A stretch of DNA of 34,366 nucleotides from Hungatella sp. GTDB taxonomy: Bacteria > Bacillota > Clostridia > Lachnospirales > Lachnospiraceae. Positions 12,341 through 26,311 of the stretch are shown in pieces. Location: positions 1 to 34,366 of the forward strand of contig JAAWHU010000036.1 of the NCBI GenBank assembly GCA_022796015.1, read 5' to 3'. The number at the start of each line of letters is the position of its first letter. Position 1 is the stretch's first letter. Position numbers and translations under genes: made by a program. The notes under the pieces are model-generated. The model was given only the letters and a program-made list of their open reading frames with translations, was not told where the DNA came from and did no database searches.

Positions 12341-13651
12341 ATGAATATAATCTTATTATCCGGCGGTTCAGGAAAACGGCTGTGGCCCTTGTCAAATGAT
12401 GTACGGTCAAAACAGTTTATAAAGCTCTTTCCTTCTGAGCATGGCTATGAATCTATGGCTCAAAGGATGTACAGACAAATCAGAGAACTTGATAGAAATG
12501 CAGTTATTACAATCGCTACATCCAGAACTCAGGTTTCGGCTATTCATAATCAGCTGGGGGAGGACGTGGGAATATCAGTGGAGCCTTCAAGACGGGACAC
12601 CTTCCCGGCCATTTCACTGGCTTGTGCGTATCTGCATGAGATAAAAAAAATATCCGAAAAAGAACCTGTTGTTGTAGTCCCCGTAGACCCCTATGTAGAC
12701 GAGGACTACTTTTTTGCCCTTACCAGGTTATGTGAGCTCGCAGGAACATCTGATTGTAACATTACACTTATGGGAATCAGCCCGACTTATCCAAGTGAGA
12801 AGTATGGTTATATTATCCCCCGTAATACTTCCGAAATAAGCTTTGTAAAATCATTTCAGGAAAAACCGGATAAAGCTACAGCAGAAGCATACATAAAACA
12901 GGGAGCACTTTGGAACAGCGGTGTTTTTGCATTCAGGCTGCAGTATGTTCTTGATAAATCAAAAGAATTATTGGGGTATGACGGATATAAAGACTTGTAT
13001 GATAACTATGATACCCTAAAGAAAATAAGCTTTGACTATGCAGTGGTTGAGAAGGAAGCATCTATACAGGTTATGCGCTTCAACGGCATTTGGAAAGACT
13101 TGGGTACCTGGAATACCCTTACAGAAGGAATGGAGGAAAAGATTATCGGTAATGGCAGAATGAATGATAGCTGTCGAAATTTACATATTCTGAACGAACT
13201 TAATATACCGATCCTCGCAATGGGTATGAAGGATGCGGTTATAAGTGCATCACCGGAGGGCATTCTGGTGTCCGACAAGGAACAGAGCTCTTATATAAAG
13301 CCTTATGTTGAAGAAATAAATCGGCAGGTAATGTTTGCAGATAAGTCATGGGGGAGTTACCGGGTCCTTGATATAGAGAAGGGGAGTCTAACAATAAAGA
13401 TTGGTTTAAAATCAGGATGCCGTATGAGCTATCACAGCCACCAAAATAGAAATGAAATATGGATCGTTGTTTCAGGAAGAGGAAAAGCAGTTGTGAATGA
13501 GAACGAGAAGCTTATACAAAAAGGTGATGTGGTGATGATAGATGCTGGCTGTAAACATACAATTATTGCAGAAACAGAAATGACATTAGTTGAAATACAA
13601 TTAGGGGATGAAATATATATAGAGGACAAGAAGAAATTTACACTTAATTAA
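12341..13651 (+). CDS. manC: Mannose-1-phosphate guanylyltransferase with C-terminal cupin
   Basis: A 436-residue protein. The nucleotidyltransferase domain begins IILLSGGSGKRLWPLS (residues 3-18), the pyrophosphorylase signature for GTP binding, and continues with VEPSRRDTFPAISLACAY and KSFQEKPDKATAEAYIKQG. The C-terminal ~110 residues form a cupin with WGSYRVLDIEKG, CRMSYHSHQNRNEIWIVVSG and GDVVMIDAGCKHTI, as in type II phosphomannose isomerase domains. ManC makes GDP-mannose from mannose-1-phosphate and GTP, and the cupin may add mannose-6-phosphate isomerase activity. This feeds the Gmd at 8651-9679. The protein is somewhat shorter than classic bifunctional enzymes. AAAGGAAAG lies upstream of the ATG. 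The gene is followed almost at once by the mutase needed one step earlier. Confidence 0.93.
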   Translation: MNIILLSGGSGKRLWPLSNDVRSKQFIKLFPSEHGYESMAQRMYRQIRELDRNAVITIATSRTQVSAIHNQLGEDVGISVEPSRRDTFPAISLACAYLHEIKKISEKEPVVVVPVDPYVDEDYFFALTRLCELAGTSDCNITLMGISPTYPSEKYGYIIPRNTSEISFVKSFQEKPDKATAEAYIKQGALWNSGVFAFRLQYVLDKSKELLGYDGYKDLYDNYDTLKKISFDYAVVEKEASIQVMRFNGIWKDLGTWNTLTEGMEEKIIGNGRMNDSCRNLHILNELNIPILAMGMKDAVISASPEGILVSDKEQSSYIKPYVEEINRQVMFADKSWGSYRVLDIEKGSLTIKIGLKSGCRMSYHSHQNRNEIWIVVSGRGKAVVNENEKLIQKGDVVMIDAGCKHTIIAETEMTLVEIQLGDEIYIEDKKKFTLN

Positions 13652-13673: not shown

Positions 13674-15353
13674 ATGGAAAATAACAATATAAACAAGCAG
13701 TATCATTTATGGATGGAAAATGCGGATTCAGAGTATAGAGCTGAATTGCAGCTTATGTCAGAGGAAGACATTAAAGATGCATTTTATAAAGAATTGTCCT
13801 TTGGAACCGGGGGCCTAAGAGGGATTATGGGAGCCGGAATAAACAGGATGAATGTATATACGGTGGAAAGAGCATCACAAGGATTGGCCAATTATATAAT
13901 AAAAAACTTTCCAAGTAGAAAATGTTCGATTGCCATTGCTTATGACAGCAGAAGGAAATCGGATCAGTTTGCCCGGGTTTCTGCTGAAGTTTTTGCAGCT
14001 AATAACATAAAAGTATATATTTACAAAGAATTAATGCCTACACCATGTTTGTCATATGCGATCAGACAGCTTAAGTGTCAGGCAGGAATTATGATTACAG
14101 CTTCCCATAATCCTATGAAATATAACGGATATAAAGTTTATGGAGAAGATGGGGGTCAGGTTACAATAGAAGCAGCAGAGAAAATACAGAGAGAGATTTC
14201 AGAGATTGATATATTTAAAGATGTAAGGAAGATTGATTTTGATGAATGCTTGGAACAAAAAAAGATCATTATGATTGATGAGTCGATTTATTTGAATTAT
14301 GTGGAAGAAGTTTTAAAAGAATCTGTAGTCAAGGAATCCATTGATCGAGATGTCTCGATTGTATATAGTCCATTAAATGGAACAGGATTGAAACCAGTAA
14401 TTAGGACATTAAAAGAAGCCGGATTTACTAATATCACGATTGTTCAGGAGCAAGAACAGCCAGATGGAGCTTTTCCAACATGTCCTTACCCAAATCCAGA
14501 GATTCGTGATGCTATGGAATTAGGGATTCAATATTGCGAAAGGATAGGAGCGGATATTTTAATTGCGACCGATCCGGATTGTGACCGATGCGGTGCTGCG
14601 GTTCGCGCCTTGGACGGCAGCTTCAGACTTCTTTCCGGAAACGAAATGGGGATTTTGCTTTTAGATTATATATGCAGTCAGAGAACAGCCAGCCATAAGA
14701 TGCCGGAAAATCCGGTGTTTATAAAAACGATAGTAACCACAGAATTAGCAGAAAGAATTGCTGAGAGTTACGGCGTAAGGACTATTAATGTTTTAACAGG
14801 CTTCAAATACATAGGAGAACAGATTGGAATTTTAGAACAAAGTGGAACGGAACATAGATTTATCCTTGGATTTGAAGAATCATGCGGATATTTGACAGGA
14901 TCTTATGTCCGGGATAAGGATGGAGTAAATGCAGCATTATTAATTTGTGAGATGGCTGCATATTATAAAAAACATGATATCACTTTGCTGGATAAGCTGG
15001 AGGAATTAAACAGTATATATGGGTATTATTTAAATACACTTCATACTTATGCGTTTGAAGGGAAAGCTGGTTCTAACCGGATGAGAAGAGTAATGAATAA
15101 CTTTCGGAATGGAATGAAAAGAATAGGAGAAAAGAAGGTTTATAGAATTGAGGATTATGCATTAGGAATACAAGGCCTTCCGAAAACAGATATGATTAAG
15201 TATATACTTTCTGATAATTGCTCAGTAGTTATAAGGCCAAGTGGGACAGAACCAAAACTTAAGGTTTATATCTCAGCTGTTTCAAATAATAAAAAAGAAT
15301 CAGTAAGGATAGAACATGAGATTCTAAAGAATATTGAAAATATAATAAAATAA
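13674..15353 (+). CDS. Phosphohexomutase (phosphomannomutase/phosphoglucomutase)
   Basis: The frame also offers an ATG at 13656, five bases after manC. The ATG at 13674 is preferred because it has GCGGGA six bases before it, while 13656 has no purine-rich site. The 559-residue product is a four-domain alpha-D-phosphohexomutase of the long PgcA-like type. It has SFGTGGLRGIMGAG near the N-terminus, the active-site serine loop ITASHNPMKYNGYK (Ser about 144), the metal-binding DPDCDRCG, the sugar-binding GFEESCGY and the phosphate-binding RPSGTEPKLKVY. It interconverts hexose 6- and 1-phosphates. Here it would supply mannose-1-phosphate to ManC, though it may serve glucose too. It is the last enzyme gene of the polysaccharide locus. 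Confidence 0.92.
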   Translation: MENNNINKQYHLWMENADSEYRAELQLMSEEDIKDAFYKELSFGTGGLRGIMGAGINRMNVYTVERASQGLANYIIKNFPSRKCSIAIAYDSRRKSDQFARVSAEVFAANNIKVYIYKELMPTPCLSYAIRQLKCQAGIMITASHNPMKYNGYKVYGEDGGQVTIEAAEKIQREISEIDIFKDVRKIDFDECLEQKKIIMIDESIYLNYVEEVLKESVVKESIDRDVSIVYSPLNGTGLKPVIRTLKEAGFTNITIVQEQEQPDGAFPTCPYPNPEIRDAMELGIQYCERIGADILIATDPDCDRCGAAVRALDGSFRLLSGNEMGILLLDYICSQRTASHKMPENPVFIKTIVTTELAERIAESYGVRTINVLTGFKYIGEQIGILEQSGTEHRFILGFEESCGYLTGSYVRDKDGVNAALLICEMAAYYKKHDITLLDKLEELNSIYGYYLNTLHTYAFEGKAGSNRMRRVMNNFRNGMKRIGEKKVYRIEDYALGIQGLPKTDMIKYILSDNCSVVIRPSGTEPKLKVYISAVSNNKKESVRIEHEILKNIENIIK

Positions 15354-15394
15354 TAATTATAGGAGATTCTTATTATGGGCGGAGGATTTATTTG

Positions 15395-17029
15395 ATGAAA
15401 AAAAGTCGGTTTTTATCTGTGTTTCTCTTTATAACACAGATCTACCTATTGTGGGAGATAAATAATATAAAAAGTTTTTTAAATAATGCTCCGGCTTTAT
15501 ATGATGAAAAGCAAATAAAAAAAGGGACAGAGGATAGTATTAGTTTAATAGAGACAATCAACATTCCTGTTGGCGGTAATTTAGTTGCTGGCAGTAATTA
15601 TGAATTAGGTGCAGGATGGACATATACGAATGGTACTTTTAATCATACATCAGGTTATACAGATCCGCTCACTATTAAATTCAATGTTATCCCCAATACA
15701 TACTACTTTGCCAAGTTCGATACTCCCGCGTTTAGTTTACCGCAGGATTTTACAATTTCAGTTGGAAATTACTTGATAGAGAATACTTATAAAGAAGAAA
15801 ATAATTATAATTTCACATTCTTGCCTACAGACGGTAACAACTTAGTTATAACACCATTACCTCATTTTGATGGGAGTATAAATAACTTATTTATTGCTGA
15901 AATAATACCTGGTTCAGAGAAAAAGATTGAGGTTGAAGTGTTAAATGTTGGTGAAAATTTGAATCCCTACTTAACAGGGTTTTGGAATATTGCGTTAGGA
16001 GATGATACTCTAAAATCTCTAATAAGCGGAAGATCAAATATTGCTTTTGGACATCAAACTTTTCCGATACTTCAGAAAAACAATCAAAATATTGCCATTG
16101 GAACTTTCTGCGCTCAGAATATGATTGATTCTTATAGAAATGTGTTTATAGGAGTAGATGTGGCTGAATTTCCAGAAAATGGAGGAAATAACAATATTGG
16201 AATAGGTACAGCCTCCCTAGGAAATTTTGAATCCATTGGCCATAATAATATTGCTATAGGTAATGGATCGCATTTTGGAGGTGAAAAAGGCACTGGAGGT
16301 AATTATAATATTGATATCGGAATGGGCGCCGGTTTTAAAAATTATGGAGATAAAAATACTATTATTGGATTCTATGCGGGTAATGGAAAATCTCAAAGTA
16401 ATGCTGTATTAAATAAGGCCTCCAACGTTCTGCTTATTGGGGCAGAGACAGGAAGCATTGATGAATTTTCGTTTCAGAATGGTGACATTAACATTAATAA
16501 TCTTATAAAGGGTGGATTAAACAGAGAAGGTCTTTCTATAACAGATTCAAATTTTTACATTGAGAATTCATTAAATAAAGGATTTAAATTTCAACTCAAC
16601 AAGACTAATAATGTATCATATTTACAGATTGTAAATAATGATAATATTGAGACTGCGATTGGTGGGATAGAATTTATTCAAATGCCTAATACCAATACTG
16701 ATATGAACTCAAGAAGGGAAGTTGCTTTAATTAGCGGAAACTTAGTTAAGAGTTCTGTAGAAGGACAGAATGGGGCGGATATTGTTATTTCCTTAAAATC
16801 ACCGGATGGGCCTTTTAGCGATAAATTTATATTCACGAACCAAGGACAAATTGGCGTTTTTAATACTGCTCCTGAAGCTATGGTTGATATTAATGGTCAA
16901 TCAGAATCTATGGGAGCGTTACACATAAATCCTGGTTCGCTTTTAACTATCCCTAAAGATGGAACATTAGAGTATGATGGATTACATCTTTATTTTACAA
17001 TTAATGGTGTAAGAAAGCAGTTAGATTAA
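15395..17029 (+). CDS. Signal-anchored protein with phage-tail-fibre-like beta repeats
   Basis: The start is the ATG at 15395, eight bases after GGAGGA (15381-15386). The 544-residue protein has a lysine-rich N-terminus and a hydrophobic segment (about 5-20), so it is secreted or membrane-anchored. Residues about 60-172 are beta-rich and resemble the jelly-roll modules of phage fibres (ELGAGWTYTNGTFNHTSGYT). Residues 197-352 contain about nine copies of a 16-24 residue repeat with core N-I-A-I-G (NIALG, NIAFG, NIAIG, NVFIG, NIGIG, NIAIG, NIDIG, NTIIG, NVLLIG), like YadA-head/tail-fibre beta-rolls. The C-terminus has TIPKDGTLEYDGLHLYFT, a segment common near the ends of tail fibres. No sortase motif or S-layer domain is seen. 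A role in surface display or polymer binding is only a guess. Confidence 0.65.
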   Translation: MKKSRFLSVFLFITQIYLLWEINNIKSFLNNAPALYDEKQIKKGTEDSISLIETINIPVGGNLVAGSNYELGAGWTYTNGTFNHTSGYTDPLTIKFNVIPNTYYFAKFDTPAFSLPQDFTISVGNYLIENTYKEENNYNFTFLPTDGNNLVITPLPHFDGSINNLFIAEIIPGSEKKIEVEVLNVGENLNPYLTGFWNIALGDDTLKSLISGRSNIAFGHQTFPILQKNNQNIAIGTFCAQNMIDSYRNVFIGVDVAEFPENGGNNNIGIGTASLGNFESIGHNNIAIGNGSHFGGEKGTGGNYNIDIGMGAGFKNYGDKNTIIGFYAGNGKSQSNAVLNKASNVLLIGAETGSIDEFSFQNGDININNLIKGGLNREGLSITDSNFYIENSLNKGFKFQLNKTNNVSYLQIVNNDNIETAIGGIEFIQMPNTNTDMNSRREVALISGNLVKSSVEGQNGADIVISLKSPDGPFSDKFIFTNQGQIGVFNTAPEAMVDINGQSESMGALHINPGSLLTIPKDGTLEYDGLHLYFTINGVRKQLD

Positions 17030-17165: not shown

Positions 17166-17225
17166 AATGTCTGGATATCTATGGCCAACTGCAAATTTAC
17201 CCATATCCAAAGGAAGGGAGAAGAA

Positions 17226-18170
17226 ATGGATACAGATGCTTTTAGATATGTAATCGTCCTGGCAGAATGCAGAAGTATTTCAGAGGCGGCGCGGAAATTA
17301 TTCATTACCCAGCCGGCGCTGACAAAGCATCTGAACAAATTGGAGGAAACCCTTGGAATCGGAGTAAGGTTATTTGACAGAAGTGTCACTCCCATTAAGA
17401 TCACGCCGGCGGGGGAGATTTTTCTGGAATATTCTAAGAAATATGTGGATATGGAGACGGAGATGAAGGAGCGGCTGAATGTAGCTCTTCAGCTTCAGAA
17501 GGGCAGTATTAAGGTGTCCAGCACATCCGGAGGCGAATGGTACCTGGCCGATCACATAGGGACTTTTTTAAAAACATATAAAGACATTATTCTGGAGATC
17601 CAGGACAATACTGCACGGGTATGTGAACAGCTGTTAGAAAGAGAAGAGATTGATATAGCCATTTACACAGACCCGGTTTGTTCGGATAAGGTAGAATACG
17701 TGCCTCTTTATAAGGATCGGCTCCAGTTTGCAGTATCCTGGGATCATTTTTTGCTGGAAGGGAAGGATATAGAGAACAACAGCCTGGATAATCCCTTGGA
17801 GCTTGATATAAGTGAGTTTCGCAATCCCAGGATAAAATATGTTCTCTCCACTCCGCCTCATGGAATGTACCGGGCAGAGCAGGAATTCTTTAAAAAGTAC
17901 AGCATAGAGCCCACAGATCCTCTGAGGATTGACTTCATAAATACCAGATACTCCATTGCCTGCAGCAGCAGAGGGATTGTGATGGTTCCCTATATAACGG
18001 CCAGGCGGATCGCTCAGAGAAATCCGCCTGTATTCTGTACCGTGAAGGGCGGCCGCTTGTCCAGGCAGATTATTATAGCTAAGAAAAAGGGACGCCCTCT
18101 TTCGGCGGCCGGAGAGACATTCTGGGATTTTATAATTCAGCACAGCTTTGGAACGCAGGTTTATGAATAA
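17226..18170 (+). CDS. LysR-family transcriptional regulator
   Basis: The ATG at 17226 has AAGGAAGGGAG immediately upstream and gives a 314-residue protein of typical LysR length; an earlier in-frame ATG at 17181 would add an unusual tail. Residues 1-60 form the winged helix-turn-helix, with the recognition region CRSISEAARKLFITQPALTKHLNKLE. RLFDRSVTPIKITPAGEIFLEY follows, and then the coiled linker. The rest is a periplasmic-binding-like effector domain with strands such as GSIKVSSTSGGEW and EEIDIAIYTDP. LysR proteins bind DNA as tetramers and respond to a small ligand. It probably controls the transporter-hydrolase operon that starts 336 bases downstream in the same direction, whose upstream region holds dyad half-sites. 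The ligand is unknown, perhaps a carboxylate. Confidence 0.93.
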   Translation: MDTDAFRYVIVLAECRSISEAARKLFITQPALTKHLNKLEETLGIGVRLFDRSVTPIKITPAGEIFLEYSKKYVDMETEMKERLNVALQLQKGSIKVSSTSGGEWYLADHIGTFLKTYKDIILEIQDNTARVCEQLLEREEIDIAIYTDPVCSDKVEYVPLYKDRLQFAVSWDHFLLEGKDIENNSLDNPLELDISEFRNPRIKYVLSTPPHGMYRAEQEFFKKYSIEPTDPLRIDFINTRYSIACSSRGIVMVPYITARRIAQRNPPVFCTVKGGRLSRQIIIAKKKGRPLSAAGETFWDFIIQHSFGTQVYE

Positions 18171-18200
18171 ATTTTATAGTACCTATAACAATAAGGAATA

Positions 18201-18230
18201 GCCGTCAGCTCTATGCTGGCGGTTATTTTT
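18201..18230 (+). terminator. Rho-independent terminator of the LysR gene
   Basis: A nine-base-pair stem (GCCGTCAGC at 18201-18209 with GCTGGCGGT at 18215-18223, two G-U pairs) and a five-base loop are followed by TATTTTT. It begins 31 bases after the LysR stop codon. Confidence 0.85.
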
Positions 18231-18360
18231 ATTCTATCGGAAGGCGGGCCCTATAGAACAGAAAGCCCTCCAGGAAGGATTCTTTTTCCTCTTGGGAGTC
18301 AGCCGGGAAAAGCACTGAGGCTTTTAAAATGAACATCACTTTTCTGGCATTTTTTGTGCA

Positions 18361-18425
18361 ATATTTCGCATAAAAATAAGTTATATGCCATATGAAATAT
18401 CAGAATCGTCATAAAATGCGAATAT
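18361..18425 (+). promoter_or_regulatory. Candidate LysR operator: three related half-sites
   Basis: ATATTTCGCAT (18361-18371), ATATGAAATAT (18390-18400) and ATGCGAATAT (18416-18425) lie just upstream of the -35 box of the transporter promoter. The first and third are near-perfect inverted copies of each other, and the middle one fits the same pattern less well. Multiple spaced dyads just before the -35 are the usual layout of LysR recognition and activation sites. The remaining bases from 18231 to 18360 hold no gene or further structure that I can support. Confidence 0.45.
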
Positions 18426-18426
18426 A

Positions 18427-18455
18427 TTGAACTAAAATTAAATAATCTATACAAT
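18427..18455 (+). promoter_or_regulatory. Promoter of the transporter-hydrolase operon
   Basis: TTGAAC (18427-18432), a 17-base spacer, and TACAAT (18450-18455) make a strong sigma-A type promoter. Transcription would begin near 18462, leaving a leader of about 45 bases that includes the AAAGGAGGT site at 18492-18500. The half-sites listed separately abut the -35. Confidence 0.65.
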
Positions 18456-18506
18456 TAATATATCTTATTTTTCCGAAGATGAAAAAAGAAAAAAGGAGGT
18501 AGTTTT

Positions 18507-19799
18507 ATGGCGGAAAAGGGAAAGAAAGGGATCATGGATGAGAAGTTGTTTGGCTTGCCGCTTCCGTATTTTGCGGTGGTGTCTCTCATTGTGCTGGGAG
18601 CGGGATTTTTGGGGAAGCTGGAATCCAAGAGCCTGGTGTGCGGCGGAGCCGTGTGTGTAGTCTTTGGGTACTGGCTGTCCTTTATTGCCAATAAGGTCTG
18701 GTTTATCAGGAAGACCATCGGCCTTGCTTTTGTGGGTATTGCCGGCGCCGCTATGGTGTACTTCAACCTGATTCCGGAAAATATTCTCACCCCGGCAAGT
18801 GCATTTATGAATGAAACCAATTTTCTGGCATTTTATATTGCGGCTCTTTTGTGCGGTTCCATTCTGGGCATGGACAGGAAGCTTCTGATTCAGGCAGGCA
18901 TACGGTATTTTGTTCCCATTATGGGCGGCGTAATTCTGGCTTACGGCCTGGGCGGCCTTGCAGGTGTACTTGTGGGTATGGATTTTAAAGAAACCGTTAT
19001 GTTTGTGGCGGCGCCGATTATGGGCGGGGGAAACGGAGCCGGAGCCGTTCCCATGTCAGAGATTTATGCCAATGCCACTGGTGCTGACAAGGCAGACTTT
19101 TATTCACGTCTCATGGCTATGGTAACCCTGGGCAACTGGTTTGCCATGTTAGGCGCATTGATTCTCAAATGGTTGGGCGACCGTTATCCTAAGACGACGG
19201 GCAGGGGAGTTCTCATGGAAGGCTTCCGCCCCGAGGATTCTGCCAAAGAATACAGCTATACCATGACCACAGAGGACATGGTAGCCGGCCTGGGTCTGGC
19301 GCTGGGCTTTTATATCTTTGGACGTATCGCCAATATTCTTCTGCCCAGCATCCACGCCTATGCCTTTACCATTGGGTTTGTGGCACTGTGTAAAATATGC
19401 GGCTGGATTCCCGAACGGCTGGAATTCGGGGCCGTAAAGTGGTATCGTTTTATGATGGATCATTTTACCATCGTCATCATGGGCGGTGTGGGACTTACCA
19501 TGATGGACTTAGGGGAGCTTCTTGCAGTATTGACTCCTAAATATGTATTTGTAGTGTTTATTGTGGTTTTGGGAGCAGCCTTAGGGGCAGGCCTCATTGG
19601 GCTTTTGGTAAAGTTTTTCTTTGTGGAGTCTGCCATTACAGCCGGTATGTGTATGGCCAACGGCGGAGGAAACGGAGATATTCTTGTTCTCTCCATGGCA
19701 GACCGTATGAATATGATGTCCTTTGCCCAGATTTCTTCCCGGCTGGGAGGCGCCCTGATTCTGGTGATCCAGTCAATACTGGCCTCAATGTGGTTGTAG
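18507..19799 (+). CDS. 2-hydroxycarboxylate transporter (2HCT/CitS family)
   Basis: A 430-residue membrane protein preceded by a perfect AAAGGAGGT six bases before the ATG. It has the layout of the 2-hydroxycarboxylate transporter family (CitS, CitP, MaeN): about 11 membrane helices and two re-entrant loops bearing GGxG motifs. The motifs are visible as APIMGGGNGAGAVPMSEIYA in the first half and MANGGGNGDILVLS in the second. The second is followed by MNMMSFAQISSRLGGALILV, the conserved C-terminal substrate-binding region with its arginine. Members take up citrate, malate or lactate-type anions with Na+ or H+, or exchange them. No citrate lyase, malic enzyme or oxaloacetate decarboxylase is nearby. 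Instead it shares an operon with two hydrolases, so the natural substrate may be unusual. Confidence 0.93.
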   Translation: MAEKGKKGIMDEKLFGLPLPYFAVVSLIVLGAGFLGKLESKSLVCGGAVCVVFGYWLSFIANKVWFIRKTIGLAFVGIAGAAMVYFNLIPENILTPASAFMNETNFLAFYIAALLCGSILGMDRKLLIQAGIRYFVPIMGGVILAYGLGGLAGVLVGMDFKETVMFVAAPIMGGGNGAGAVPMSEIYANATGADKADFYSRLMAMVTLGNWFAMLGALILKWLGDRYPKTTGRGVLMEGFRPEDSAKEYSYTMTTEDMVAGLGLALGFYIFGRIANILLPSIHAYAFTIGFVALCKICGWIPERLEFGAVKWYRFMMDHFTIVIMGGVGLTMMDLGELLAVLTPKYVFVVFIVVLGAALGAGLIGLLVKFFFVESAITAGMCMANGGGNGDILVLSMADRMNMMSFAQISSRLGGALILVIQSILASMWL

Positions 19800-19821
19800 C
19801 TAAGGAAAAGGAGGAGTTTCT

Positions 19822-20649
19822 ATGGGAGCAGAGAGCGTATTGGATTCAGATTTGACGCCGGAAATGAGAAAGAATTTATTTGGCAATGCATACTTAAACA
19901 TGCTTTGGCATTGCCAGAGCGATCCAAGGTTTCACTATTGGGTTCATCTGCCTGATGATTACTATGACGAGGAGAAGCCGGAATATGACTTGATGGTGAT
20001 TATTCATGGGACAGGATGCGGGGTGGAGGGCTATTTGAAGGCGGCAAGGGGATATGCAGACCGGCATCATATGGCTCTGCTTGCTCCCGTGTTTCCGGGA
20101 GGCCTTGTTCAACGAGATGATTTTAACAGCTATAAATTGTTATCCTGTGATGGAATCCGCTATGACCAGGTATTATTGAATATGGTGGATGAGATGAAAA
20201 AAAGATATCCGGGAGTAAAGACAGACAAAATGTTTCTCTTTGGCCATTCCGGCGGCGGGCAGTATGCCAACCGATTCCTGTTTGTGCATCCGGAACGGCT
20301 GAGAGCCGTATCCATAGGGGCTCCGGGGCGTCCTACCTACCTGAACAGAGAGGAGGACTATTTCTGGGGAGTCAGGGATTTTAAGGATTATTTTGACAAA
20401 GACCTTAATCTGGAGGCTGTGAGAAGAGTGCCGGTTCAGATTACTGTAGGCGAGCTGGACGTGAAGTACATCGGGGATTCCCCCTACGGAACCAACCGGG
20501 TGGAGCGGATGAAGAGCCTGGAGAAAAACTTAAGGGAACACGGAGTGAATGTCCGGCTTGCCATTCTTCCGGGCTTGGAGCATGGAGATGGAGAGAGGGA
20601 CCGGGTAGAGGCTGCCCAGAGATTTTTTGCGGAATTTATGGAGGGATAA
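19822..20649 (+). CDS. Alpha/beta hydrolase (esterase-like)
   Basis: A 275-residue cytoplasmic protein without a signal peptide. It shows the alpha/beta hydrolase core: the oxyanion strand LMVIIHGTGCGVEGYL, the nucleophile elbow LFGHSGGGQYANRF (G-x-S-x-G, serine as nucleophile), an acid candidate in ITVGELDVKYIG and the catalytic histidine in LPGLEHGDGERD. The overall pattern is closest to the esterase/PHB-depolymerase-like group rather than lipases. AAAGGAGGAG precedes the ATG, which is 22 bases after the transporter stop, so the genes are co-transcribed. It may release an acid or alcohol from an imported ester, but the substrate is not known. Confidence 0.85.
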   Translation: MGAESVLDSDLTPEMRKNLFGNAYLNMLWHCQSDPRFHYWVHLPDDYYDEEKPEYDLMVIIHGTGCGVEGYLKAARGYADRHHMALLAPVFPGGLVQRDDFNSYKLLSCDGIRYDQVLLNMVDEMKKRYPGVKTDKMFLFGHSGGGQYANRFLFVHPERLRAVSIGAPGRPTYLNREEDYFWGVRDFKDYFDKDLNLEAVRRVPVQITVGELDVKYIGDSPYGTNRVERMKSLEKNLREHGVNVRLAILPGLEHGDGERDRVEAAQRFFAEFMEG

Positions 20650-20655
20650 GGGCTT

Positions 20656-21717
20656 ATGAGTGATAGGTTTCAACTGATTAAAGTAAAAGCAGACACAGCC
20701 TTGGAGCGGGGAAGGCAGTACGGCAGTCAGGCCAAAGATAAGATTCAGGCAGGGGTGGAGAATTACCGGCGGTATTTTGAAGAAAAGCAGGGCTATACCT
20801 GGCAGGAGACAAAGGATTATGCCGCCGCCTATATTCCTGTAATCCGGGAGAGAATGCCGGAGATTCTTAAGGAAGCCCAGGGAATTGCTGAAGGCGCAGA
20901 CATCGGACTGGAAGAACTTATGGTGTTGAATACCAGGTACGAGCTGACTCAGTATCCCAACAAACTTCCTGAGTGTACGACTGCAGCCGTTTTGCCGGCA
21001 GCGTCGGAAGACGGAGGTACCTATCTGATCAAAAATTGGGATTATCGGCCGGGAATCCTGGATAAAATTGTACTTGTCAGTCTTGAGGATGAAAACGGAA
21101 CCCGCGTAATAGGCTTGACGGAAGCAGGCCAGCTTATCCGGGAAGGCTTTAACTCTAATGGCGTAGGGCTGTGCAATAATATGATTCAATCGGTCTATGA
21201 CAAAGCGGGAACAGGAATTCCGGTAACATTTTTAAGGCGGCGGGTTCTGGCAAGCAGGAATTTTGAGGAGGCCTATGGATGGCTGATCCACAGTGAGAGA
21301 TGTGTTTCCAACAATATGATGCTGGTGGATGGCAGGCTGGGGAGGGCTGTGGATATTGAGGCGTATCCGGGAGGAAGCGACCATATCTGGCCTAAGAACG
21401 GAATCGTGGTTCATGCCAATCATTTTGTGGTAAATCCCCGGATTGATGCCCTGAAGGTAAGGCCCAAGAACCGAGATAACCGTCTGGAGTATCTGCTCCG
21501 CCTTAAAGAGGGAAAAATCAATCTTGCATACATACAGGAATGTATGAAGGACCATGAGTATTATCCTCAGGCTGTCTGCAATCACTGCATAGACCAGGAG
21601 GATTCCATGAAAGGCCTGATGACCGTGGCGTCTTTGATTGTGGATTTTAAAAATAACACCGCATATGTATGCAAGGGAAATCCCTGTAAGGGAGAGTATT
21701 ACACCTATGCACTGTAG
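20656..21717 (+). CDS. C45-type Ntn hydrolase/acyltransferase (acyl-CoA:6-APA acyltransferase-like)
   Basis: A 353-residue protein beginning 6 bases after the preceding stop. The architecture is that of the peptidase C45/acyl-coenzyme A:6-aminopenicillanic acid acyltransferase family. A helical pro-segment of about 106 residues includes GIAEGADIGLEELMVLNTRYE. Then comes the nucleophile region PECTTAAVLP, with Cys107 as the expected new N-terminus after self-cleavage. TYLIKNWDY, GLTEAGQLIREGFNSNGVGLCNN and VHANHFV follow as the substrate pocket strands. Family members self-process and hydrolyse or transfer amide-linked acyl groups. The usual Gly-Cys processing site is Glu-Cys here. With the transporter and esterase this suggests breakdown of an amide or ester conjugate, and the physiological substrate is unknown. 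Confidence 0.82.
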   Translation: MSDRFQLIKVKADTALERGRQYGSQAKDKIQAGVENYRRYFEEKQGYTWQETKDYAAAYIPVIRERMPEILKEAQGIAEGADIGLEELMVLNTRYELTQYPNKLPECTTAAVLPAASEDGGTYLIKNWDYRPGILDKIVLVSLEDENGTRVIGLTEAGQLIREGFNSNGVGLCNNMIQSVYDKAGTGIPVTFLRRRVLASRNFEEAYGWLIHSERCVSNNMMLVDGRLGRAVDIEAYPGGSDHIWPKNGIVVHANHFVVNPRIDALKVRPKNRDNRLEYLLRLKEGKINLAYIQECMKDHEYYPQAVCNHCIDQEDSMKGLMTVASLIVDFKNNTAYVCKGNPCKGEYYTYAL

Positions 21718-21921: not shown

Positions 21922-22125
21922 GTGAAGGAGATGATGAGGATGACGCTGCTGGGACAGATGCTGAGGGAAGATGGGATAAAGGAAGGAATAGAACAAGGGG
22001 AGTTTAAAACCATGCTGGAGCTGGTACAGGAGGGAATCTTAACTATAAAGGAGGCCGCCGCCAGAAAGCAGATGAGTGTGGAGGAATTCCAACAGAAAAT
22101 CCGGGAATTAAAGCTGGGGTTATAA
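21922..22125 (+). pseudogene. Remnant resembling the C-terminus of an Rpn-family transposase/nuclease
   Basis: The frame runs from a stop at 21901-21903 to the stop at 22123-22125. A GTG at 21922 or ATG at 21931 could start a 67- or 64-residue product. The residues LREDGIKEGIEQGEFKTMLELVQEGILTIKEAAARKQMSVEEF resemble (split here as LREDGIKEGIEQGEFK, then IKEAAARKQMSVEEF) the charged helical tail of Rpn/PD-(D/E)XK transposase proteins. That tail repeats G-x-x-x-G-x-x-x-G and ends with a small helix-turn-helix-like segment. The nuclease domain expected upstream is absent: translating the preceding 120 bases in the other frames gave nothing recognisable. It is therefore most likely a decayed fragment, though the tail alone can be expressed in some loci. 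It lies between two terminators. Confidence 0.5.
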
Positions 22126-22141
22126 AGAGATAAGAAGAACA

Positions 22142-22172
22142 AGACTTCGGACAGACATCCGGAGTCTTTTTT
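22142..22172 (+). terminator. Rho-independent terminator
   Basis: AGACTTCGG (22142-22150) pairs with CCGGAGTCT (22159-22167) with one G-U pair and an eight-base loop, followed by TTTTT. It sits 17 bases after the remnant and 33 bases before the -35 of the next operon, and so insulates that operon from readthrough. Confidence 0.85.
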
Positions 22173-22204: not shown

Positions 22205-22233
22205 TTGAAGAACAAGAAGAACAATGCTATAAT
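22205..22233 (+). promoter_or_regulatory. Near-consensus promoter of the FRG-AIPR operon
   Basis: TTGAAG (22205-22210), a 17-base spacer, then TATAAT (22228-22233) with TG at 22225-22226 giving an extended -10. Transcription would begin near 22240, only about 20 bases before the chosen start codon. No obvious operator dyad overlaps it, so strong, possibly constitutive expression is expected. Confidence 0.8.
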
Positions 22234-22259
22234 AAAGAAAAAACATGGAGGACAAAGCC

Positions 22260-22844
22260 GTGGCAGACCGGTTAAAAACATCAGAGATCAAATTGCTTCT
22301 GCGGCAGTGTGTACAAGACGGAAAGAACCATCCGGTTGATGATTTTAAGAAGTATATTGCCCAAAATGCCGAAAAATCTTTCAGCATCGGCCAGTTAAGC
22401 GGAGCCATATCCCAGCTTACGGCTCTGAAGGAGCTGGAGAATATAGGGAGGGGCTTATACCGGAAAGGACCGGCTTTCCGTGATGGAACAGACGAGAGAG
22501 ATCCCCAGGGCCGGGAGAGCAGGACAGGAGCAACAGGCCAATCCGCCCCAATGGGTTCGGATGACCCGGCCGGCATGACAGGCGCCGCCGCGGGAACGGA
22601 TGCAGATACAGGGAATGGAGAAGGTAACCAAGATCAAACAAAAGAAATAAATGAAGAAAATGAAGATGAACAAATCAAAAAAATGTGGAAGGAGCTTAAG
22701 GTATTTCTGGAGGAAGCAGACCAGAGTCTTGCCAGGATCGTGGGAAATGCCAATGTATGGAGCTTAAGCAATCAGGAATTTGAACTGCTTCGGGAAGTGA
22801 GATGTCTGGGTGAGCAGATGAAGGCCGTTGCGGCCAAATGCTGA
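22260..22844 (+). CDS. Unrecognised protein, possible N-terminal winged helix, first gene of FRG-AIPR operon
   Basis: The best start is the GTG at 22260, seven bases after GGAGGA (22247-22252). The ATG at 22245 overlaps that site and would follow the predicted transcript start by only about five bases. The 194-residue product has three parts. Residues about 6-68 could be a winged helix (KTSEIKLLLRQCVQDG, FSIGQLSGAISQLTALKEL, then GRGLYRKGP as the wing). About 69-130 is a glycine, acidic and polar low-complexity linker. The final ~65 residues are helical and charged (EQIKKMWKELKVFLEEADQS). I do not recognise the family. DNA binding, or an adaptor between partners, would fit the shape. It ends 13 bases before the FRG gene and is co-transcribed with it and the AIPR gene. 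Confidence 0.7.
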   Translation: MADRLKTSEIKLLLRQCVQDGKNHPVDDFKKYIAQNAEKSFSIGQLSGAISQLTALKELENIGRGLYRKGPAFRDGTDERDPQGRESRTGATGQSAPMGSDDPAGMTGAAAGTDADTGNGEGNQDQTKEINEENEDEQIKKMWKELKVFLEEADQSLARIVGNANVWSLSNQEFELLREVRCLGEQMKAVAAKC

Positions 22845-22857
22845 TGGGGAGGTTAAT

Positions 22858-23973
22858 ATGGACCATGTAGAGGGAAATGCCCTTCCAAAAGAGAAGAGTA
22901 TCAGTGATCCTGTGTGTATCCAAAATGTATCGGAGTATCTGGGCAGAATCCGGACGTGCATAAGCAAAAGGCAGCAGAAGGGCTGTGTGGTGGTGTACCG
23001 GGGAGAGCCTGATGTATATGAACAGCCCTGCAGGCCCAACATTTTCCGGAAGGGCGTGCTAAAGGGCAATGATTTTTTCGAGAAAAACCTGTTTGATACC
23101 ATGAGGCAGAGCAAGCTGACAGGAGAGAAGCGGTATCTGGACAATGCCATCGACGCCCAGCACGGAGAATTTCCCAGCCGTCTTTTGGATGTGTCCTACA
23201 ACTGCCTTATTGCCTTATATTTTGCGGTGACGCCCTACTATCATTACCGGGAAGATTCCATGGATAAAAAGGACGGGATGGTGTACCTGTTTTTCATGGA
23301 TGAGATCTTCAGCCCCAGCGCCCAGAACACCAACGACAACTACAATGCCATTATCAACCGGAACCAGGACTGGTATCAGAGCAATTCCATTTTCTGGAAC
23401 AATCACAAATTCATTGACCATACGAAGCTGAACGGAAGGATTATCGCCCAGCAGGGGGCATTCATTCTCTTTCCCGGGGAGGAGCCCCAGGAGCTGCCGA
23501 AGTATGTATACTGCGGGATTCGGATTCCCGGGGAGTCCAAGGCCCTGATCCGTCAGGAGCTGAATCAGCTTTTCGGCATTCACACAGGAAGCGTGTATCC
23601 TGAAATCATCAATCTGGTTAAGGAGCTGAGCGGAAAAAGCACAAAACTGAACACAGAGGAATTTTGCTGTGAAAATGAGGTGCACCACACGCTGAAGCAG
23701 CTGGAACAGGAACTGCTCTATTATCTTGATTATGCCCTGGAGCAGAGGAAAAGTGACCGGATCGGCCAGATCCTGGTCCATATTGAGCAGAGGCTTTCCT
23801 ATTACCGCCAGGGAATAAAAGAGTTTCAGGAGTATTGTAAGCACAGCCCAAGCATATCAGAGGAATGGGCGGAGCAGATGGCAGAACAGTATAATCAGCT
23901 GGTACAAAGGTTTTCCGACGCAATAGAAGAATATCGTATAGGGGAGCTTTCATGGAGGACCCTTAAGCTTTAA
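22858..23973 (+). CDS. FRG-domain protein
   Basis: The ATG at 22858 follows GGGGAGG (22846-22852) by five bases, giving 371 residues. The N-terminal half shows the FRG domain: CVVVYRGEPD at 43-52 (the F/Y-R-G that names the domain), RPNIFRKG at 59-66, QHGEFPSRLLDVSYNCLIAL at 101-120 and YFAVTPYY. This matches the family pattern of RG, P-x-(L/I)-FR, QH-x-G-x-P-(T/S)-RLLD and ALYFA. The later half has helical segments (EVHHTLKQLEQELLYYLDYAL) that could mediate association. The biochemical function of FRG domains is not settled to my knowledge. They recur in accessory and defence-type gene clusters. Here the gene sits between a possible DNA-binding protein and an AIPR protein, 19 bases before the latter, in one operon. 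Confidence 0.85.
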   Translation: MDHVEGNALPKEKSISDPVCIQNVSEYLGRIRTCISKRQQKGCVVVYRGEPDVYEQPCRPNIFRKGVLKGNDFFEKNLFDTMRQSKLTGEKRYLDNAIDAQHGEFPSRLLDVSYNCLIALYFAVTPYYHYREDSMDKKDGMVYLFFMDEIFSPSAQNTNDNYNAIINRNQDWYQSNSIFWNNHKFIDHTKLNGRIIAQQGAFILFPGEEPQELPKYVYCGIRIPGESKALIRQELNQLFGIHTGSVYPEIINLVKELSGKSTKLNTEEFCCENEVHHTLKQLEQELLYYLDYALEQRKSDRIGQILVHIEQRLSYYRQGIKEFQEYCKHSPSISEEWAEQMAEQYNQLVQRFSDAIEEYRIGELSWRTLKL

Positions 23974-23992
23974 GAGAGGAACAGGACCAAGG

Positions 23993-26311
23993 ATGATGGA
24001 GTTAAAGAGTCAGAGGATAAGCAGGAGTGAGATATTTAGGGATCACATTGAGCGGATTTTAAAGGATCAGGGGACAGATACGGATGATGAATGGTGGGAG
24101 GATGAAGAGGCCTGGGAGGAATTAGGAGAGCTGGCATGGGGAGACAGGGACTATGTGAGCAATTCTAAAAAATTGAAGATCGAAAGCAGGGAGCGGCTGG
24201 TCTTTGCCGTCTACAGGAAAGATAAGAATGCTCTTTTTCATCAGATTGAGGAGCAGGCAGGGCTTATGGCCCAGGAGCCGGAGACAGAAGGCATTCATCT
24301 GGTATTTTTTGTTCAGGATATGAGAAACCAGGCTAAGCTGGAAACATGTTTTTCTCATACCTATCAGGCCAAGCTGACGAACCAAATAAGAGAAAACACA
24401 GGTAAGAAGAATCCGTCTGTGAAATGTACCTATATTCTTGAGCGGGAGGACAAAAAACAATCCGTAAGGCTGTATGATCTGAGGCGGTATGAAATTATGC
24501 AGATGCCTCCGGTTTCTGCCCGCATTAACATGGAATCATCAGACAAAGAACAAGGGGAGAATCAGGAAGGATCCCTGCATGGCCTTGTGTTTACGGCCAG
24601 ATTGTATCAGCTGGTGGATATCTATAATATGATCGGCGACCAGCTGTTCAATGACAACGTGCGGTTTGGGATCAATGAGATACTGGGGGTGGATCAGGCC
24701 ATCTGCCGGACCCTTGAAGAGGAGCCGGAGCATTTCTGGTACAAGAATAACGGAATTACCATTCTGGTAAGAATCGGTAAGGCGGATTTGAGAAAGTCGG
24801 AGGTGCTGACCTTAGATGAGCTGGAACCAGGGAAAGACCCCTCCTTCTCCATTATCAACGGAGCACAGACCATAACGGCTTCAGCCAAGTGTTTTTTTAA
24901 CATGGAGCTTCAGCGTGAAGAAGACAGAGAGAACAAAGACTATTGGGAAAAGAAATTAGAAAAGTCCAAAAGGGCCCAGGTTCTTGTGCGGGTGATCTAT
25001 CTGCCCAGGGAAGAAGGGGCAGGCTCAGGAAGTCTGGGAAAAGAGATCAGCGTGGCCCTAAACCGGCAAAAGCCCATTAAGATGGAAGATATTGCATTTA
25101 CCACCTATCAGGTAACGAAGACGGCCCGTTATCTGGAGCGGGAGATGAAGGCGGGCCGGGGCGATTTCAGTCTTGTAAGGAGAGGGGAAGGAATTTTAAG
25201 AAACCGGCAGTTGGAGCTGATCTCCTTTGTGCGGGCCAGAAAGGCATGTTGGGGAGAACCGGGGGAAGCCAGGAGCAAGGGCGCCAACGAACTTTTAAAG
25301 CTTAGGATTGATGAGGATGGAAATTATGTGTTCTATTACCAAGATATTTTTGTAAAGGAGTGGACCGAGGCAGAGGAGCGGCAGGAAGACCAGGTATTTA
25401 AGCGCTTCTATGGTGCGGTATGGTTTGCCGACCAGCTGGCCAGAAGATATGAGAAGGAAAAACGACAGATAAAGAAGGAAGAGCCGGAGATCTTGACTGC
25501 AGTGCGGAACGGAAAATGGTATTTTACCGCTGCCTTGATTCAGGTTCTTAACGGATTCGCAAAGAAGGAAAACTCAGAAGGCCGAATGGAGCCGGATTAT
25601 TCTGGATTTGGCAGTTCTGTGGAGGATGTGGAGGGAAATTTATTACAGGGAATCGTAAGCTTTGCGCAGATCGTGGCAACTTATGCCCGTATTCACAGGG
25701 ACGAGTATGGGGAACTGGATTCTAATTTGTTTAAAAAGAGCGACTGCTATGAGGGCCTGATGGAGGCCATGGAACAGGTGTACAAGGGGGGCAGGAGGAC
25801 AGATATTGTCTGGAAAAGGACGGAGGAGGAGACGGTTCTGACAGAGCTTTTGACGGATTTCTGCAGTCTTTTTGTACCTGGAGTTTTTGAAGAAAATGCC
25901 TCAGAGACCAATATATCCCAACAGGAAGCGGCGATGACTGCCGTAGAAGAGTTCCTTGGGGAAAAGTATGCCGTATTTGGCCAAAGAAGGGTTCGTGTTA
26001 AAAGTATGGCAGAAGCTATGGGGAAAACCGTGGAATACATACTGACACAATATCCCCAGGGACTGGATGGGCTTGAAGAGTATGCCGGAGGATGGATCAC
26101 GGCGGATTCGGAGAAGGCCTGGGCAAGCGACGGATATTTCGCGGGAGCTCCCAGGGAGATTAAAGTAGGAGGAGCCACCTACTGGATCGGAACTCTCTCT
26201 AATACAGGCAGGAAGACCCGCCAGGTGCGGGAGATGTGCCGGCAGGCAGGGGTAAAGCGGGGAGAGATTGCCTGGTATGACAGTGCTGGAAATAAGGTGT
26301 TCGGCTGGTAG
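23993..26311 (+). CDS. AIPR-family (abortive phage infection-type) protein
   Basis: A 772-residue cytoplasmic protein. ATG codons at 23993 and 23996 are both possible, with an AGGACCAAGG region just upstream. The central part carries the AIPR landmarks: LFNDNVRFGINEI at 218-230, FWYKNNGITILV at 248-259, SIINGAQTITAS at 286-297, VLVRVIYLP at 330-338 and ALNRQKPIKMEDI at 355-367. The ~200 residues before it form an acidic, then mixed alpha/beta region. The last ~110 residues (FGQRRVRVKSMAEAMGKTVE onward) look like a separate small domain that I do not recognise. AIPR proteins are named for a lactococcal abortive-infection protein and their mechanism is poorly defined. It converges with the DUF4129-like gene, leaving 11 bases between stops. 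Confidence 0.85.
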   Translation: MMELKSQRISRSEIFRDHIERILKDQGTDTDDEWWEDEEAWEELGELAWGDRDYVSNSKKLKIESRERLVFAVYRKDKNALFHQIEEQAGLMAQEPETEGIHLVFFVQDMRNQAKLETCFSHTYQAKLTNQIRENTGKKNPSVKCTYILEREDKKQSVRLYDLRRYEIMQMPPVSARINMESSDKEQGENQEGSLHGLVFTARLYQLVDIYNMIGDQLFNDNVRFGINEILGVDQAICRTLEEEPEHFWYKNNGITILVRIGKADLRKSEVLTLDELEPGKDPSFSIINGAQTITASAKCFFNMELQREEDRENKDYWEKKLEKSKRAQVLVRVIYLPREEGAGSGSLGKEISVALNRQKPIKMEDIAFTTYQVTKTARYLEREMKAGRGDFSLVRRGEGILRNRQLELISFVRARKACWGEPGEARSKGANELLKLRIDEDGNYVFYYQDIFVKEWTEAEERQEDQVFKRFYGAVWFADQLARRYEKEKRQIKKEEPEILTAVRNGKWYFTAALIQVLNGFAKKENSEGRMEPDYSGFGSSVEDVEGNLLQGIVSFAQIVATYARIHRDEYGELDSNLFKKSDCYEGLMEAMEQVYKGGRRTDIVWKRTEEETVLTELLTDFCSLFVPGVFEENASETNISQQEAAMTAVEEFLGEKYAVFGQRRVRVKSMAEAMGKTVEYILTQYPQGLDGLEEYAGGWITADSEKAWASDGYFAGAPREIKVGGATYWIGTLSNTGRKTRQVREMCRQAGVKRGEIAWYDSAGNKVFGW

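Follow-up and report, generated by a model that had tools for sequence, protein, structure and literature searches.

An FRG-domain gene and an AIPR-family gene, adjacent to each other in a 34,366-nucleotide stretch of Hungatella sp. DNA, form a conserved two-gene module whose members have diverged together. The stretch analysed, hereafter the window, is the entire contig JAAWHU010000036.1 of a 3.7-Mb genome (163 contigs, 88.6% complete). The two genes are the second (22858..23973) and third (23993..26311) of three open reading frames (ORFs) on the forward strand, preceded by a first gene at 22245 or 22260-22844; the spacings of 13 and 19 bases given in the first-pass annotation agree with the ORF coordinates. 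That annotation had read all three genes as one distinct candidate defence operon and had proposed a search for their co-occurrence. FRG and AIPR proved to be linked in all 20 loci of the lineage which hold both genes, with the FRG gene directly upstream in each case, whereas the first gene accompanies the pair in only 3 of the 20 (the window and loci L006 and L007), so that a three-gene conserved unit is not supported.

The specificity of the linkage was assessed by comparison with more distant members of both families. The 19 loci that encode other AIPR proteins (all the weak matches of the AIPR search in 397 family genomes) are without exception free of an FRG neighbour. Likewise, no AIPR neighbour occurs in the 27 loci that encode other FRG proteins, which comprise 21 of 41 weak places from the order-genome search and all 6 from the phylum-genome search (the FRG ORF of one, L143, was not refound by the profile). 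The control stretches are 3-14 kb in length as against 12-34 kb for most of the paired stretches. The tight coupling claimed for the window thus holds throughout the lineage. Among the 19 loci outside the window, 14 were discovered via the AIPR gene, with FRG then found upstream, and 5 via the FRG gene, with AIPR then found downstream. The genes also look real, since the ratio of nonsynonymous to synonymous substitution rates (dN/dS) in two pairs of close relatives is 0.03-0.13, indicative of strong purifying selection.

In phylogenetic trees the paired FRG proteins form a single clade (100/96; 19 paired and 23 other proteins, with the decayed L049 and the other FRG proteins L081, L134, L140 and L143 omitted), as do the paired AIPR proteins (98/97; 19 paired and 18 other proteins, with L049 and the other AIPR proteins L116 and L122 omitted). 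In both trees L106, L173 and L175 branch off first, and L047 is placed beside the same eleven members that stand without modification genes nearby (termed solitary below); the trees disagree on the places of L048, L105, L107 and L174. The pairwise distances of the two proteins are correlated over 13 pairs (r 0.925), and none of 5000 permutations, in which shared ancestry is ignored, reached as high a value.

Architecture of the FRG and AIPR proteins

The FRG protein (371 amino acids) matches PF08867 with an E value of 1.1e-11 and a score of 45.9 bits, well above the Pfam gathering cut-off of 25, and it matches the PADLOC defence-candidate family PDC-S15 at E 1e-31 with the best PDC-S15 model. 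Its YRGE (residues 47-50), QHGEFPSRLLD (101-111) and ALYFA (119-123) motifs, together with FWYKNNGIT (248-256), SIINGAQT (286-293) and ALNRQKPI (355-362) of the AIPR protein, are all present as named in the first-pass annotation. Within the FRG core (22990..23235, forward strand) the RGE, QH, SR.LD and AL.FA residues are invariant in eight members that range from deep to shallow, and of the two partners FRG shows the higher conservation (65% identity to L006, compared to 48% for AIPR). The protein thus shares its domain and motifs with FRG-domain immune proteins (PF08867; PDC-S15) and differs from the other FRG proteins in its AIPR neighbour and in the separate clade of the paired members. According to a section of PMC9503650, Frg is a domain of the ART superfamily that prokaryotes use in immunity and that may be an NADase; on the basis of that source, the FRG protein of the pair may belong to the ART superfamily and perhaps act as an NADase.

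The AIPR protein (772 amino acids, forward strand) matches PF10592 (E 3.2e-13; 50.5 bits, gathering cut-off 25), the PADLOC AbiU model (E 8e-11) and the Abi-alpha-like family phrog_1841 (E 1.1e-21). The paired AIPR protein of L106 gives no PF10592 match up to E 0.5, yet it is recognized by the lineage profile at E 8e-21. The protein consists of a core that is common to other AIPR and AbiU proteins (about residues 191-592, 24563..25768), with NNG, NGAQT and N.Q motifs, and an N-terminal region (residues 1-190, 23993..24562) which is unalignable to theirs. In a profile-profile comparison the paired and the other AIPR proteins align over the core only (probability 99.9, E 1.5e-32).

Ahead of the core, other AIPR proteins carry a D..GxD..QxK pattern, of a type that is typical of PD-(D/E)xK nucleases. 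In alignment A6, made of 11 other AIPR proteins chosen for carrying this pattern, none of the four residues (both D, Q and K) varies. By alignment, the Q is found in 16 of 20 other AIPR proteins (13 as QxK and 3 as QxY) and in none of 16 paired rows; counted by a single D..QxK/Y pattern, the motif occurs in 13 of 20 other proteins (in a few of these the match terminates at an adjacent QxK instead of at the aligned position) versus none of 19 paired proteins. The paired N-termini contain no invariant position before residue 172 (13 members). Both types of protein are encoded in the island of L105, where the paired AIPR protein is devoid of the motif and a second, unpaired AIPR protein (14592-16379) contains the QxK. 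Since the paired AIPR proteins lack the nuclease-like motif of their relatives and are accompanied by FRG, it appears as if the catalytic job had passed from AIPR to its FRG partner.

A portion of PMC3506569 places the N-terminus of DndB in the AIPR family. A DndB/DGQHR-like nature of the AIPR core, which the NGAQT and N.Q motifs had led us to expect, was not recovered: profiles A1 and A6 each gave a probability of 0.5% against the DndB of L048, in a weak test that used this single DndB sequence.

Genomic neighbourhoods and distribution of the pair

Seven of the 20 pairs are located in islands of DNA-modification or restriction genes. In L105, L106 and L175 these comprise a cytosine-5 methyltransferase, a MutH-family nuclease and an AspBHI-like nuclease, with an additional Vsr-like nuclease in L106. 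L173, on a contig listed as viral, contains the methyltransferase and a MutH-family gene, and no AspBHI-like gene was seen in the fetched part. A methyltransferase is also present in L107, in what we read as an integrative and conjugative element (ICE)-like stretch with recombinase and relaxase-like genes. In L048 the NCBIfam cut-offs are exceeded by DndB, DndC, DndD and DndE and narrowly missed by a DndA-like desulfurase; the dnd-like genes of L047 are all below the cut-offs. The methyltransferase/MutH-family/AspBHI-like island itself recurs with the FRG-AIPR pair (L106, L173, L175 and L105). With the same queries, a methyltransferase match was obtained in 2 of the 19 other AIPR loci and in none of the 27 other FRG loci, a comparison in which the restriction and dnd queries were taken from the paired loci themselves and which therefore favours finding such genes there.

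The solitary pairs are mostly situated among housekeeping genes, at differing places as read by eye. Eleven of them form one branch nested among the linked lineages in both trees, solitary L174 standing apart, which makes modification-linked pairs the probable ancestors of the window's branch; the forks between linked and solitary lineages have moderate support in the FRG tree.

Two types of known system resemble these arrangements. Parts of PMC3506569 and PMC2292703 present the AIPR gene as an accessory of restriction or Dnd systems, and the deep FRG-AIPR pairs sit in such islands; in contrast to that description, the paired AIPR gene is always accompanied by FRG, and modification genes are absent from the surroundings of the pairs in the window's branch. 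Like the MZA system, the pair places an AIPR protein in a putative defence operon, but it lacks adjoining MzaA-D partners, and its match to MzaE is weak (21.7 bits, cut-off 1050), which sets it outside that system.

The AIPR query produced strong matches (E 5e-40 or better) in 11 of 397 family genomes, including that of the window, the next match being at E 1e-9. Of 26 genomes of the genus, 3 have a match, which in one case is weak and corresponds to a remnant only. A search of genome contigs revealed two strong loci in Lachnospiraceae, L006 and L007. The lineage profile added one locus among 391 class genomes, and FRG profiles added two among 392 order genomes, two among 398 phylum genomes and one among viral contigs; in the viral contigs there was no match to profile A2 and one to A7 (L173). 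In phages, two records gave distant FRG matches only; in plasmids, 206 records gave such matches, all of them covering less than 80% of the query. The AIPR protein of L105 matched 2 plasmid records, and the FRG protein of L107 matched 319, again with none covering 80%. Two Akkermansia loci (L008 and L009) were dropped as chance matches inside a large transporter-like protein.

All 10 same-genus regions fetched retain the genes that lie to the right of the operon (MoxR, DUF58 and the one after them) but have no pair there; in G003 and G007 the pair or its remnant is carried on another contig. The left flank of the window was not found in those 10 regions, which therefore offer no clean empty-site comparison.

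Proposed function and rival explanations

We modestly favour the view that FRG-AIPR is an abortive-infection or immune module, in which FRG would be the effector and AIPR its sensor and brake. As an ART-superfamily effector, FRG would consume NAD+ or transfer ADP-ribose, thereby halting growth or killing the infected cell. AIPR, retaining the AIPR core and having lost or never had the nuclease-like N-terminal motif, would hold FRG in check and release it when infection or disturbed DNA modification is sensed. In the deep lineages the pair would back up a 5-methylcytosine methyltransferase with restriction nucleases, or DNA phosphorothioation, and the branch of the window would have become stand-alone. 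The sensor/effector pair suggested in the first-pass annotation fits the co-divergence of the two proteins; the two roles themselves, together with toxicity, the brake function, the trigger and phage defence, are what we infer from the comparisons above.

A more specific version can be offered only tentatively, and we would not back it against its opposite. The AIPR protein may have swapped its own nuclease for an ART-fold partner and come to guard DNA modification: the pair would watch methylation or phosphorothioation and kill the cell when a phage defeats the modification system, and the branch of the window, freed from this task, would sense infection directly.

Several observations weigh against an FRG effector controlled by an AIPR sensor in an immune module. 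The structure model of FRG, built from three sequences (window, L006 and L007), has a predicted local distance difference test score (pLDDT) of 46 and a predicted template modelling score (pTM) of 0.37, which leaves the ART fold unconfirmed, and a sequence search of solved structures for relatives yielded nothing credible. The AIPR model from the same three loci is no better (pLDDT 44, pTM 0.31). Around 13 of the 20 pairs, including that of the window, there is no homologue of the modification, restriction or dnd genes of the linked islands; the window contains no homologue of the dnd genes of L047 and L048, and its 88.6% complete genome gave no DndC or DGQHR match. Proximity to defence genes, on which the original proposal of a defence system was to be judged, is seen for part of the lineage, and the proposal finds some backing in the matches of both partners to PADLOC defence-candidate models, while the surroundings of the window speak against a defence island there. 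Finally, in one portion of PMC3506569 AIPR proteins are assigned an N-terminal HEPN toxin domain, and AIPR itself could be the toxin if such a domain were present at its N-terminus. Family scans of AIPR residues 1-189 gave no HEPN, although no search aimed at HEPN was made.

This last point leads to an alternative that we consider unlikely, in which AIPR would act as effector by means of its core or of a HEPN-like N-terminal part, and FRG would regulate it, perhaps through ADP-ribosylation of AIPR or of the modification enzymes. It would accord with that HEPN assignment, with the abortive-infection label of AIPR families and the AbiU match, and with the use of AIPR without FRG in some published systems (as stated in a section of PMC9523054). 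It is countered by the N-terminus of the paired AIPR proteins, which is variable before residue 172 and bears no nuclease-like motif, and by the invariant motifs and better conservation of FRG.

The pair may instead represent a selfish or plasmid-stabilising module of the toxin-antitoxin kind that has itself no role in phage infection, a possibility to which we assign a low probability. Two adjacent, co-diverging genes with scattered single insertions would suit such an element, as would the ICE-like surroundings of L107 and the transposase that adjoins the pair in L174. So would the decay of individual copies: the AIPR frame is broken in L049, the FRG gene is split in L173, and L050 (9498-9947 in a same-genus genome; a twenty-first locus, outside the count of 20) is a 149-codon remnant that joins the beginning of FRG to the final part of AIPR, a large stretch between them having been lost. 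The AIPR partner is, however, large for an antitoxin, and seven pairs are built into modification or restriction islands (dnd or dnd-like in two cases), the kind of place in which defence modules gather.

Less probable still is a host stress or regulatory pair with no link to defence: solitary members among housekeeping genes and the strong purifying selection agree with it, but carriage is patchy in both genus and family, the neighbours differ in most genomes, copies decay, and the deep members have restriction and dnd neighbours.

Both components are known as defence candidates, and it is their pairing and architecture that appear to be new; a literature search, covering open-licence papers and hence weak evidence of absence, returned no paper describing the FRG-AIPR pair. 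AIPR proteins are widespread beside restriction systems and their working is poorly understood, while FRG domains are proposed immune NAD+ enzymes of which little has been directly tested. As the obligatory pair would split two jobs onto two proteins, toxicity, inhibition and trigger should be separable gene by gene, and the step from modification-linked to solitary pairs provides a naturally occurring contrast in which to follow how a sensor of this kind alters its trigger.

The first gene and other features of the window

The first gene (22260..22844, forward strand) encodes 194 amino acids from a GTG at 22260 or 199 from an ATG at 22245. The GTG is most likely the start, since it is preceded at about 8 bases by GGAGG and the two relatives of the protein align starting just after its residue. 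About 65 N-terminal residues have the look of a small, winged-helix-like DNA-binding domain and are followed by a low-complexity linker and a conserved helix-rich C-terminal tail. The label of a possible winged-helix protein in the first-pass annotation corresponds to this sequence pattern and finds no support from family matches, none of which rose above chance in Pfam, NCBIfam or PADLOC. The gene is a lineage-specific add-on and probably encodes a DNA-binding regulator of the operon.

Among 299 family genomes searched, weak relatives of the first gene were found in 3 of the 298 others, and no FRG or AIPR gene was seen in their loci of 2-3 kb. In two of these, L152 (835-1719) and L153 (1435-1989), the part related to the N-terminal domain is joined in one protein with a VVSPIGD-type domain, whose resemblance to nucleoside deoxyribosyltransferases is below threshold (E 0.041).

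Upstream of the operon, on the forward strand, there is a terminator-like stem (22141..22168; 11 pairs, 5 of them G-C, followed by TTTT) and a sigma-70-type promoter-like site, TTGAAG-17-TATAAT with TG before the -10 element (22205..22233), which matches the consensus at 10 of 12 positions and is identified by that match only. In 6 kb, 13 promoter-like sites were observed compared to 6.9 expected from shuffles, and 11 terminator-like sites compared to 7.0. Because such sites are just somewhat commoner than in shuffled sequence, their presence alone is only suggestive of the promoter-driven, terminator-insulated transcription that had been proposed. An Rfam search of the window returned no match.

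A 67-codon ORF at 21922-22125, just ahead of the terminator-like stem and without a family match, may be the tail of a lost gene. Further to the left (17181-21717), a LysR regulator is followed in one direction by carrier-like, esterase-like and AAT acyltransferase genes; the family scan covered the regulator and the acyltransferase. The gene at 12341-13651 codes for a nucleotidyl transferase with a mannose-6-phosphate isomerase domain and probably forms part of a sugar-nucleotide cluster on the window's left side.

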